Source: Patescibacteria group bacterium
Lineage (GTDB): Bacteria; Patescibacteriota; Minisyncoccia; Minisyncoccales; Staskawiczbacteraceae
Length of the DNA: 32,435 nt
Assembly (NCBI GenBank): GCA_018895235.1
Contig: JAHIOM010000014.1
Coordinates: 69,203-101,637 of the forward strand
Direction: 5' to 3'
Part shown: one piece after another, positions 2,417 through 5,492 of the stretch
How positions within the stretch are numbered: position 1 is the first letter of the stretch
Layout: each line of letters opens with the position of its first letter
Position numbers and translations under genes: made by a program
The notes under the pieces: model-generated
The model's database searches: none
The model's input: only the letters and a program-made list of their open reading frames with translations
What the model was told of the DNA's origin: nothing

Positions 2417-2427
2417 TTCGGAAAAAG

Positions 2428-2501
2428 CGCGGGCGACGGGATTTGAACCCGTGATCTCTGCCGTGACAGGGCAGCGCTTTTCCAAACTAAGCTACGCCCG
2501 C
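2428..2501 (-). tRNA. tRNA-Asp (GTC)
   Basis: A complete 74-nt cloverleaf reads on the minus strand: acceptor GCGGGCG/CGCCCGC, anticodon stem CTGCC/GGCAG with loop CTGTCAC (anticodon GTC), T-arm ACGGG-TTCAAAT-CCCGT, and discriminator G73 as expected for Asp. CCA is not encoded. Its first 15 bases overlap the end of the upstream LAGLIDADG gene, whose stop codon is tRNA positions 13-15. Confidence 0.95.
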
Positions 2502-3155
2502 ATTTTTGTAAATTTTATATTTTCTTTTTAAATAAATCAACTCAGTCATCTTATTATTGTTATACATAAACTTAAATAATTTTTTAGAATCGTTAACGCC
2601 ATAATTTAATCTCCATGTATTTTCACTCACATTTACTGATCCATCAGTCCCAACTATATTACCCAATTTAATTTTCAGATTATCTAAAATTAGTCTACTC
2701 CCCGAAGTAAATCGTGTACGCAAAGTATATGATTTATTTTTTCTATCTGGTTTTTTAAAATATCCCGAAAGTACATTGCCGTCACCATCAAAATATCCTC
2801 TAACAAAATGCGAAAAATATTGATCGGGTATTTTTGGTAAATCAATTATCTTACTTTTAGCTGGCATTAAACCCAATTTCAGTAAATCATTAAACATCTC
2901 CTTACTACCAATTTGTAAGCGGAACGCCTTTTTCCATTTATTATTTCTCTTACGTTCTGCAATTTTGTGGTTAGATCCAAACAACTCTCTAATTTTATAT
3001 AACAAATCTTTATCTGTTATTTCGAATTCTATAAAATGCGCACCTCTCTTATTTTTTATCATTGTTCCATCGGCCGTAAAAAATCCTAATACATAAGCCA
3101 TTTCTGGCGTCCACTTTTTGAAAAAATCTTCGTTCTTGGTTTTAAAAATTGGCAT
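2487..3155 (-). CDS. LAGLIDADG homing endonuclease, two-motif type
   Basis: A 222-residue free-standing endonuclease with two LAGLIDADG-type helices: AYVLGFFTADGTM (about residues 20-32) and HFVRGYFDGDGNV (about 116-128). Each ends in the acidic residue that coordinates the catalytic metal, so the enzyme looks intact. Proteins of this family make site-specific double-strand breaks at long target sites. The gene lies between tRNA-Met/Ile2 (13 nt upstream) and tRNA-Asp, and its last codons (AAT GCG GGC GTA GCT TAG) are the first 15 bases of tRNA-Asp. There is no intron in either tRNA. The target may be the tRNA cluster itself, which is inference. It is probably expressed from the tRNA transcript. 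Confidence 0.9.
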   Translation of the reverse strand: MPIFKTKNEDFFKKWTPEMAYVLGFFTADGTMIKNKRGAHFIEFEITDKDLLYKIRELFGSNHKIAERKRNNKWKKAFRLQIGSKEMFNDLLKLGLMPAKSKIIDLPKIPDQYFSHFVRGYFDGDGNVLSGYFKKPDRKNKSYTLRTRFTSGSRLILDNLKIKLGNIVGTDGSVNVSENTWRLNYGVNDSKKLFKFMYNNNKMTELIYLKRKYKIYKNAGVA

Positions 3156-3168
3156 TTTTAAAACTTAA

Positions 3169-3241
3169 TGCCGGAGGTGGGATTTGAACCCACGACCTCT
3201 GCCTTATGAAAGCATTGCTACTACCACTGAGCTACTCCGGC
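3169..3241 (-). tRNA. tRNA with CAT anticodon (elongator Met or Ile2)
   Basis: A 73-nt cloverleaf on the minus strand: acceptor GCCGGAG/CTCCGGC, anticodon loop TTCATAA (CAT), T-arm GTGGG-TTCAAAT-CCCAC, discriminator A73, no encoded CCA. The anticodon stem has an A27-G43 mismatch and a T31-G39 wobble. C11 and a normal 1-72 pair argue against an initiator. Elongator Met and lysidine-modified Ile2 cannot be separated by eye. Positions 8-10 (TAG) serve as the stop codon of the overlapping GIY-YIG gene. Confidence 0.9.
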
Positions 3242-3498
3242 TTTTTACGATTTCCGTATTTAATTAAATGCTCTTTCTTTCCTCTCCGCCATCCTTTTAT
3301 TTGTCTTTCTCTATTTAGGACTTCTATCTTCGTAAAAAATTCTTCTTTATAAACAATTTTTATCGGCTTATGTAATTTTGTATATCTGCCGCCTTTTTTA
3401 TGACTATGTTCTGCAAAGCGTCTATCTGTATTTGAGGTTGACCCAACATAAAAACTTCCATCCTCGCATTTAATTAAATACATAAACCACTTTATCAT
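3232..3498 (-). CDS. GIY-YIG domain nuclease (small, YhbQ/UPF0213-like)
   Basis: An 88-residue single-domain GIY-YIG protein. The first strand is MYLIKCEDG, followed by FYVGSTSN (the YIG element), the conserved Arg in DRRFAEH, and the Glu-containing RERQIKGWRRGKKEHLI near the end, so the catalytic Tyr, Arg and Glu positions appear present. Such stand-alone proteins are structure- or sequence-specific nucleases that are common in CPR genomes; the cellular role is poorly known. The last codons (AAG CCG GAG TAG) are the first ten bases of the downstream CAT tRNA. An internal Met at residue 6 is an alternative start. Upstream lies a repeat-rich spacer and the initiator-like tRNA. Confidence 0.85.
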   Translation of the reverse strand: MIKWFMYLIKCEDGSFYVGSTSNTDRRFAEHSHKKGGRYTKLHKPIKIVYKEEFFTKIEVLNRERQIKGWRRGKKEHLIKYGNRKKPE

Positions 3499-3500
3499 AA

Positions 3501-3525
3501 TGTATGCCCTTCGGCAGGCTCAGGG
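3501..3525. repeat. Short hairpin repeat (GCCCTTCGGCAGGCTCAGGGC type)
   Basis: TGCCCT and AGGGCA form a 6-bp stem around TCGGCAGGCTC. This G+C-rich hairpin stands out in the AT-rich spacer between the GIY-YIG gene and the initiator-like tRNA, directly upstream of the GIY-YIG start. It looks like an interspersed palindromic repeat. Confidence 0.55.
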
Positions 3526-3559
3526 CACTTCGCCTCGCCCAGTTGATCTTTTATTGGCT

Positions 3560-3589
3560 TGCACTGAGCGAGCGAAGCGAGTCGAAGTG
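3560..3589. repeat. Interspersed repeat adjoining the initiator-like tRNA
   Basis: GCACTGAGCGAGCGAAGCGAGTCGAAGTG has CACT/AGTG ends and an internal reiterated GAGCGA/GCGAAGCGAG core. It touches the 3' end of the tRNA at 3590 and, with the hairpin at 3501-3525, resembles mobile palindromic repeats that I recall from many environmental genomes. That recollection has not been checked here. Confidence 0.5.
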
Positions 3590-3660
3590 TTGCGCTGCCT
3601 GGAATTGCACCAGGGCCTCCAGCTTATGAGACTGGCGAGGTACTACTCCTCCACAGCGCT
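3590..3660 (-). tRNA. Initiator-like tRNA-fMet (CAT), atypical
   Basis: The minus strand folds as acceptor AGCGCTG/CAGCGCA with an A1-A72 mismatch, D-arm GAGG/CCTC giving an A11-T24 pair, anticodon stem CCAGT/GCTGG with loop CTCATAA (CAT), and T-arm CCTGG-TGCAATT-CCAGG. An unpaired 1-72 and A11-U24 are hallmarks of bacterial initiator tRNA. Two features do not fit: the anticodon stem lacks the three G-C pairs, and the T-loop has G where T55 (pseudouridine) is nearly universal. CCA is not encoded. Other identities are unlikely with CAT. Confidence 0.75.
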
Positions 3661-3695: not shown

Positions 3696-3707
3696 GCCAA
3701 CTTATTG
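3676..3707 (-). terminator. Possible lepA terminator
   Basis: On the minus strand AAGCAGGC and GCTTGCTT pair across the lepA stop codon, followed by AATTGC and a run of seven T. The stem is short and bulged, so read-through into the tRNA cluster is possible. Confidence 0.45.
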
Positions 3708-5492
3708 CCTGCTTTTGAATATCTCCAAAAATGCCTGGTGGGAAACTTCTACTTTACCTCTTTGCTTCAGCAGTTTTTTGCCTTTTTTCTGTTTTTCCAG
3801 AAGTTTTCTTTTGCGGGTTACGTCGCCTCCGTATAAATAACCGGTAACGTCTTTTCTCCTGGCCCTGATAGTTTCTCTAGCGATTACCTTACTTTGGACA
3901 ACCGCCTGTAAGGCAACTGAAAACTGTTCTGCCGGTAAAACCTCTTTTAGTTTCTCAACTAAAAACTTCCCTTCCCTATATGCTTCACTTTCAGCAACTA
4001 TTTTTGAAAACGCCTCTTCGGGAGTACCTGCGATCCAAATCTCCATTTTTACCAAATTACCCGGCCTAAATCCCAACACCTTATAACTCATTGAAGCATA
4101 ACCCTGGCTCACGCTTTTAATTTTATCGTATAAATTAGTGATAATACCGCGTAAAGGAATCTCATAAATAATAATCGCTCTGTCAAAACTTAAGTATTGG
4201 GTATCAATATATTTTCCGCCGAGTGATTTTAAAACTTCCATTAACTTGCTTAAGTAAATTGAGGGAGTTATCAATTCCAAAGACACCCATGGTTCTTCGC
4301 TTGATTTAATTTGGCTTACTTGTGGCCAATCTGAGGCTGAATAGATAAAATCTTCTTTTCCTTTCTGGTCAATTATTTTATACACTACCGAAGGTGTGGA
4401 AATCACGAGCTCCAAACCGAATTCCCTACGCAACCTTTCAGATATAATTTCAACGTGCAAGGTTCCCAAAAATCCACATCTGTAACCCCGACCTAGCGCC
4501 TCCTTGGTTTCAGGCTCGTAAATAAAAGCAGGATCTGAAAGTTTCAGTTTTGCTAAAGCATCTTTTAATAGATCGAAGTCATTAGCATCCTGGGGGTAAA
4601 AACTAGCAAAAACCATAGGGCTTGGTTCTTGATAACCGTGTAATGGTTCAATAGAATTATTTATCTTAAACTGAGAACTAATAACTATTGTATCCCCCAC
4701 TCTTACTTTGCCAGGTTCTTTAATTCCCGTGGCAATGTAGCCGATTTCGCCGGCTGAAAGTTTTTTTTGAGGTGATAAACCCGGATTAAAAAATCCGATT
4801 TCTTTTACTTCGGCCTCTGTTTTAGTGGCCATTAATCTTATCTTTTCTCCGCTTGAAATTTCACCATCAATAACACGGACAAAAGCGATAACTCCTTTAA
4901 AAGAGTCGTAATTAGAATCAAAGATTAAAGCTCTAAATGGTTTTTGGATATCTATTTCCGGAGCCGGCACAACCTCAATTACTTTCTTTAAAAGCTCTTC
5001 GACATTGGCGCCTGTTTTCCCTGATATCTTTAAAACTTCTTTCGGATCTATGTTTAAAAGATTGGCTATTTCCTGCTGGGATTGTTCAATTCTTGCATCA
5101 GCTGCATCAATTTTGTTAACTGCGGGAATAATTACCAAGTTTTGTTTTTTAGCCAAATCTAAATTAGCCAGTGTCTGGGCTTGAATGCCCTGGGTTGCAT
5201 CAACCAGTAAAATGGCGCCCTCAACCGCAGCCAGAGCTCTAGAAACCTCGTAGGAGAAATCAACATGGCCGGGGGTATCAATTAGATTCAAAATAAAATC
5301 GCCATAGTTCATCCTCACCGGCTTTAGTTTTATAGTAATCCCCTTTTCTCTTTCCAAATCCATCCTGTCTAAAAATTGGGGCTTCATTTTCTTCAACTCA
5401 ATGGTTTTGGTAATTTCCAAAAACCTGTCAGCTAAAGTTGACTTGCCATGGTCAATGTGGCTAGAAATAAGAAAATTTCTTATGTTTCCCAT
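3702..5492 (-). CDS. lepA: Elongation factor 4 (LepA), ribosome back-translocase GTPase
   Basis: A 596-residue translational GTPase of typical LepA length. The G domain shows HIDHGKST (G1), GITI (G2), DTPGH (G3), NKID (G4) and SGKTG (G5). Family-specific sequence follows, including FCGFLGTLHVEI-like RCGFLGTLHVEII in domain III and a Lys/Arg-rich LepA C-terminal domain with ARRKDVTGYLYGGDVTRKRKLL. LepA binds the ribosome and affects elongation or assembly under stress. G5 has Gly where Ala is usual. ATG at 5492 gives the conserved NIRNF start. It lies between murJ and the tRNA cluster on the same strand; a 142-bp spacer separates it from murJ. Confidence 0.97.
   Translation of the reverse strand: MGNIRNFLISSHIDHGKSTLADRFLEITKTIELKKMKPQFLDRMDLEREKGITIKLKPVRMNYGDFILNLIDTPGHVDFSYEVSRALAAVEGAILLVDATQGIQAQTLANLDLAKKQNLVIIPAVNKIDAADARIEQSQQEIANLLNIDPKEVLKISGKTGANVEELLKKVIEVVPAPEIDIQKPFRALIFDSNYDSFKGVIAFVRVIDGEISSGEKIRLMATKTEAEVKEIGFFNPGLSPQKKLSAGEIGYIATGIKEPGKVRVGDTIVISSQFKINNSIEPLHGYQEPSPMVFASFYPQDANDFDLLKDALAKLKLSDPAFIYEPETKEALGRGYRCGFLGTLHVEIISERLRREFGLELVISTPSVVYKIIDQKGKEDFIYSASDWPQVSQIKSSEEPWVSLELITPSIYLSKLMEVLKSLGGKYIDTQYLSFDRAIIIYEIPLRGIITNLYDKIKSVSQGYASMSYKVLGFRPGNLVKMEIWIAGTPEEAFSKIVAESEAYREGKFLVEKLKEVLPAEQFSVALQAVVQSKVIARETIRARRKDVTGYLYGGDVTRKRKLLEKQKKGKKLLKQRGKVEVSHQAFLEIFKSRQ

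Follow-up and report, generated by a model that had tools for sequence, protein, structure and literature searches.

LAGLIDADG and GIY-YIG nuclease genes set against tRNA genes in Patescibacteria: candidate free-standing homing endonucleases

Two nuclease genes in a tRNA cluster

We analysed a 32,435-nucleotide (nt) stretch of a Patescibacteria group bacterium genome (GCA_018895235.1, contig JAHIOM010000014.1, positions 69,203 to 101,637), hereafter the window, in which a GIY-YIG gene and a LAGLIDADG_3 gene are interleaved with three tRNA genes. On the minus strand the order is lepA, initiator-like tRNA-Met, GIY-YIG, second tRNA(CAT), LAGLIDADG_3 and tRNA-Asp, with the following features:

3702..5492, minus strand: lepA (elongation factor 4), the anchor of the locus (open reading frame (ORF) and profile match)
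3589..3660, minus strand: tRNA-Met(CAT) with an A1/A72 mismatch that makes it initiator-like; it opens the tRNA cluster that lies downstream of lepA (ARAGORN, Rfam)
3499..3588, no strand assigned: palindromic repeat (ACTTCGACTCGC...CTGAGCCTGCCGAAGGGC), running from the very 3' end of the tRNA to just short of the GIY-YIG start codon
3232..3498, minus strand: GIY-YIG nuclease gene, 88 amino acids (PF01541, 62.7 bits); its stop codon TAG (3234-3232) is bases 8-10 of the second tRNA(CAT)
3169..3241, minus strand: second tRNA(CAT), elongator Met or Ile2 (ARAGORN, Rfam)
2487..3155, minus strand: LAGLIDADG_3 homing endonuclease gene, 222 amino acids (PF14528, 50.4 bits), with both LAGLIDADG motifs; its stop codon TAG (2489-2487) is bases 13-15 of tRNA-Asp
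2427..2501, minus strand: tRNA-Asp(GTC), intact and intronless, which the LAGLIDADG enzyme is proposed to target (ARAGORN, Rfam)

The gene order and the positions of both stop codons agree exactly with a first-pass annotation made from the sequence alone, as shown by the ORF, ARAGORN, Rfam and Pfam calls. ARAGORN and Rfam likewise confirmed its description of the tRNAs as intact and intron-less, and a hidden intron sought in the window tRNAs was not found.

The LAGLIDADG protein has the motifs and the predicted fold of monomeric two-motif LAGLIDADG homing endonucleases. The catalytic aspartate is conserved in motif 1 in 205 of 205 aligned sequences and in motif 2 in 206 of 207. The AlphaFold2 model (predicted local distance difference test score, pLDDT, 90.9) shows a double LAGLIDADG fold, for which the best match in PDB was I-Tsp061I (E 2.2e-12), with I-AniI and bI3 also matched. 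The genome of the window (G000) encodes a second, larger LAGLIDADG_3 gene away from tRNAs (L304, G000:C11:10046-12239), with an open frame of 342 amino acids.

The palindromic repeat looks like a small element that inserts at tRNA 3' ends. Among 19 distinct sites of the ACTTCGAC-initial motif in 427 kb, eight start exactly where a tRNA ends (offset 0 from its 3' end; window 3499-3588, L032, L034, L035, L037, L072, L317 and L337).

Each nuclease clade follows one tRNA

When 98 relatives were searched with the LAGLIDADG protein, homologues turned up in 34, nearly all adjoining a tRNA. Wider searches and fetched regions gave a family of 203 distinct homologues above 150 bits, and a same-strand tRNA was found within 100 bp of 196 of them, mostly overlapping the gene or within ~45 bp and in nearly every case immediately 3' of the ORF. 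Four of the seven tRNA-less exceptions are at or near contig ends, and another, L164, has an intron-split tRNA-Asp. The linked tRNAs are Asp (85 members), Leu-GAG (44) and Cys (22), followed by Leu-CAA, Leu-TAG, Leu-CAG, Leu-TAA and Phe; the Leu-CAA clade is placed on the 3' side of its tRNA. Asp-linked members were detected in Omnitrophota too.

The target tRNA tracks the nuclease phylogeny, with each clade bound to one tRNA: mapped on the nuclease tree, the tRNA label changes 18 times (minimum 14), compared with a mean of 101 when labels are shuffled. The upstream neighbour varies (Met, Val, or none within 100 bp) but the tRNA downstream does not, which marks the tRNA as the fixed element of the association. 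None of the 11 members of a distant LAGLIDADG_3 outgroup (295-424 amino acids) has a tRNA neighbour. A viral origin of the link was considered and rejected, as only one of 80 viral relatives adjoins a tRNA.

The GIY-YIG gene occupies the same locus position in 12 genomes, with its stop at -9 in several. In all 12 it follows the initiator tRNA, and in 10 it stands directly before the second tRNA-Met. Wider GIY-YIG homologues were found near Gln, Trp, Ala, Gly, Ile or Ser tRNAs. Of the two results that the first-pass annotation named as refuting its reading, the same nucleases in unrelated places with no tRNA link and unconserved tRNA overlaps, neither turned up for the LAGLIDADG gene or the window GIY-YIG clade.

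Group I introns in target tRNAs

At 28 homologue loci, tRNA-Asp is split after U35 by a sequence of 201-321 nt, and the halves joined in silico give tRNA-Asp. Rfam identified these sequences as group I introns at all eight loci of the class survey described below and at others. They contain no ORF; the nuclease is encoded outside them, by a gene that in most cases runs into the 5' exon and stops there. An intron-encoded homing endonuclease of the usual group I kind was therefore rejected as a description, the ORF being 5' of the 5' exon or overlapping it.

In the class survey, 384 genomes were scanned with the split-tRNA-Asp pattern, which was present in eight, with the nuclease directly upstream in seven. 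A member of the nuclease family is encoded in 95 of the 384 genomes (25%), and Fisher's test of the association of intron and nuclease gave 3e-4. The pattern, however, had been built from loci with the nuclease, and the association may be inflated for that reason. The sole exception among the eight (L206, G801:C12:17489) is a tRNA-Asp group I intron without a neighbouring nuclease. Intron state changes 16 times on the nuclease tree.

Initiator tRNAs can also be split: group I-type introns of 256-284 nt were found in their anticodon region at L063, L074, L077, L079, L080 and L087. These introns lie near the GIY-YIG gene in one of its 12 genomes (G011) and near a helix-turn-helix (HTH) family gene in other relatives.

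Filled, empty and decayed sites

Comparison of related genomes at the lepA-Met-Met-Asp locus showed one or both nucleases to be missing, or present as remnants, in close relatives. Because lepA anchors the locus, empty and filled versions are orthologous. G000 and G030 carry an intact LAGLIDADG gene, G004 and G005 a decayed one, and several genomes of the same family have an empty locus with a Met-Met gap of 5-60 bp. Short tblastn matches upstream of nuclease-free tRNA-Asp genes are mostly translated tRNA, and only those in G004, G005 and G471 resemble real remnants. Both nuclease genes are thus optional genes between conserved ones, at a locus with filled, empty and remnant alleles. A tRNA-integrated genomic island or an integrase was rejected as the explanation: such islands integrate at tRNA 3' ends and leave a duplicated tRNA fragment, whereas the nucleases are on the 5' side of the tRNA, and no tRNA fragment was found beside the window genes.

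Other occupants of the locus are the GIY-YIG gene (12 genomes), a 23S_rRNA_IVP gene (PF05635; six genomes), an HTH-family ORF (several genomes), or combinations of these. Genes of the four-helix 23S_rRNA_IVP type, which are known from rRNA insertions, sit between the two tRNA-Met genes at L068, L076, L081, L083, L085 and L090. A third nuclease-like family of ~225 amino acids carries an HTH and an LYWxEG motif, and most of its matches directly adjoin the 5' end of a tRNA, chiefly Met but also Asp and Ile, sometimes following an intron-bearing initiator tRNA (L063:644-1318, L080:1723-2403(-), L087:661-1338, L086, L088, L038, L371, L367, L387 and others). Pfam, NCBIfam, PHROGs and a fold search gave no placement for it.

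That unrelated ORF types (GIY-YIG, the HTH family and 23S_rRNA_IVP) share the gap between initiator and second tRNA-Met could mean that ordinary selfish or stray nuclease genes merely survive there, at a transcribed and harmless spot, and that the tRNA is not a target. Such an explanation is unlikely, however, given that each LAGLIDADG clade keeps to a single tRNA out of dozens, that the 3' tRNA stays constant while the other side varies, and that tRNA-Asp introns accompany the Asp clade.

Stop codons inside tRNAs

Overlap of nuclease genes with tRNAs is beyond chance, because at loci not chosen for a nuclease only 10 of 231 tRNAs hold the end of an upstream ORF of at least 80 amino acids, and at least eight of those ten ORFs belong to the GIY-YIG, LAGLIDADG or third nuclease-like families. 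Among the 181 LAGLIDADG family members on the 5' side of their tRNA, 107 stop inside it and 74 before it. The Asp-linked genes that end within the tRNA do so at bases 8-10 (36 members), 13-15 (15) or 20-22 (4), and the Leu-GAG-linked ones at bases 33-35 (9). Three LAGLIDADG ORFs (L120, L121 and L132) run through the entire tRNA-Asp without a stop.

RNase P cleaves at the 5' ends of tRNAs, and the first-pass annotation had proposed that tRNA maturation could in this way silence the nuclease; a stop inside the tRNA would let maturation destroy the nuclease mRNA, and the overlap would be a selected regulatory device. The 107 genes that end inside a tRNA would suit such a switch, but the 74 that end before it would not, nor would the clade on the 3' side of tRNA-Leu(CAA). 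The stops also fall in several frames, at the first conserved triplet met, and snug insertion of a gene without its own stop codon accounts for the pattern. We therefore do not retain silencing as a conserved design and consider the switch very unlikely. Since the in-tRNA stops are obligatory tRNA triplets in different frames and the remaining genes stop just before the tRNA, the overlap is a snug insertion of the gene and not a single conserved regulatory junction. The other part of the same proposal, spread through tRNA loci without an intron, fits the optional, tRNA-linked and intron-external genes described here.

A probable homing cycle at tRNA-Asp

Some LAGLIDADG proteins are group I intron maturases, and I-AniI and bI3 among the fold matches, like the introns beside some of the genes, would suit a nuclease domesticated as a maturase or processing factor for the neighbouring tRNA, but this is the least probable explanation, as the tRNA was scored as intronless for 62 of the 85 Asp-linked members, both catalytic aspartates are kept, and the sporadic distribution and remnants fit a host function poorly.

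Judged from sequence comparison, the LAGLIDADG and GIY-YIG genes are probably free-standing homing endonuclease genes with the following tRNA gene as prey, engaged at tRNA-Asp in collaborative homing. The enzyme would cut its cognate tRNA gene in a genome without the element, and repair from the donor would then copy the nuclease gene, tens of bases from the putative cut, together with the 5' part of the donor tRNA. Lying outside the tRNA, the nuclease gene would leave it whole and would often take its own stop codon from tRNA bases. Homing of this kind would account for ORFs that end inside tRNAs.

Several observations weigh against this proposal, in addition to the possible inflation of the intron association. 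Within the LAGLIDADG family, introns are confirmed only at Asp, with none in the Leu, Cys and Phe clades. The window allele itself lacks an intron, so that the collaborative arrangement is seen only elsewhere in the family. About half of the wider GIY-YIG homologue set lies near no tRNA, and for this reason the GIY-YIG gene is less certainly a free-standing homing endonuclease gene like its LAGLIDADG neighbour. The window tRNA-Asp has neither R11 nor a position-32 change, two of the alterations that might protect a resident tRNA from cleavage, and the wider contrast in such alterations, which in itself speaks for the proposal, was counted across genomes regardless of relatedness: tRNA-Asp altered by R11, by a change at position 32 or in the anticodon loop accompanies 27 of 62 nuclease-bearing intronless cases, 8 of 109 without the nuclease and 0 of 23 with both nuclease and intron. 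An independent-pairs test had too few pairs, a median of two of the six supported pairs differing, both in the expected direction.

This distribution suggests that the altered tRNA-Asp genes are resistant target alleles. The Y11-R24 pair is near-universal in tRNAs. Three R11 alleles occur among the nuclease-free genomes, one of them in the remnant-bearing G005, and the remnant-bearing G004 also has R11. It is conceivable, though we put it forward only tentatively, that an arms race with resident nucleases which cut tRNA genes has reshaped the tRNA genes of Patescibacteria, that alleles with a nuclease but no protective intron became resistant through compensated D-stem changes (an inverted Y11-R24 pair) or a change at anticodon-loop position 32, and that these scars outlive the nuclease.

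Relation to known systems

Most known examples of free-standing homing nucleases and of collaborative homing come from phages, and the literature searched yielded no report of free-standing homing endonucleases that form a tRNA-specific family in cells. The closest known systems are phage SegB and F-CphI. The tRNA genes of Patescibacteria would offer a habitat for homing-type nuclease genes outside introns, and possibly a battleground that shapes tRNA sequence in reduced genomes. As the LAGLIDADG family comprises ~200 natural cases on bacterial chromosomes, with ~18 target-tRNA switches and 16 intron-state changes, it makes the question of how nucleases and introns join into mobile introns directly testable.

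In the candidate phyla radiation (CPR), rRNA genes hold LAGLIDADG and GIY-YIG insertion sequences (PMC11270868). Host group, nuclease superfamilies and group I introns are the same as here; those nucleases, however, are inside rRNA genes, in introns or insertions, and the text of that report does not mention tRNA (PMC11270868). I-Ssp6803I is, according to the citing paper, encoded inside a group I intron of Synechocystis tRNA-fMet (Bonocora and Shub 2001, cited in PMC3984707). As described there, it resembles the present system as a homing endonuclease for a tRNA anticodon region with a group I intron and differs in being encoded within the intron, whereas the genes described here are outside.

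Collaborative homing has been described for F-CphI and the cyanophage psbA intron, in which the intron blocks self-cleavage (PMC6083498, PMC3984707). The likeness consists in an intron in the target tRNA-Asp and a nuclease gene outside it. F-CphI is an EndoVII-type phage enzyme acting on a protein gene, whereas here a LAGLIDADG protein would act on a tRNA gene of the chromosome, its own gene overlaps the 5' exon and the majority of members are intronless.

By analogy, SegB of T-even phages appears to be the nearest functional relative. This free-standing GIY-YIG homing endonuclease, encoded in the tRNA region of phages T4 and T6, cuts within tRNA genes; 386 phage homologues are enriched near tRNAs, and the segB 3' end shares microhomology with a tRNA 5' end (PMC2988022, PMC13096335). 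Both systems place an intron-external nuclease gene amid tRNA genes. SegB is a phage GIY-YIG enzyme for which no tRNA isotype preference is reported and no tRNA introns occur, whereas the genes described here lie on bacterial chromosomes, encode LAGLIDADG (and GIY-YIG) proteins, form clades bound to one tRNA, have stop codons inside the tRNA and are associated with group I introns in the target tRNA.
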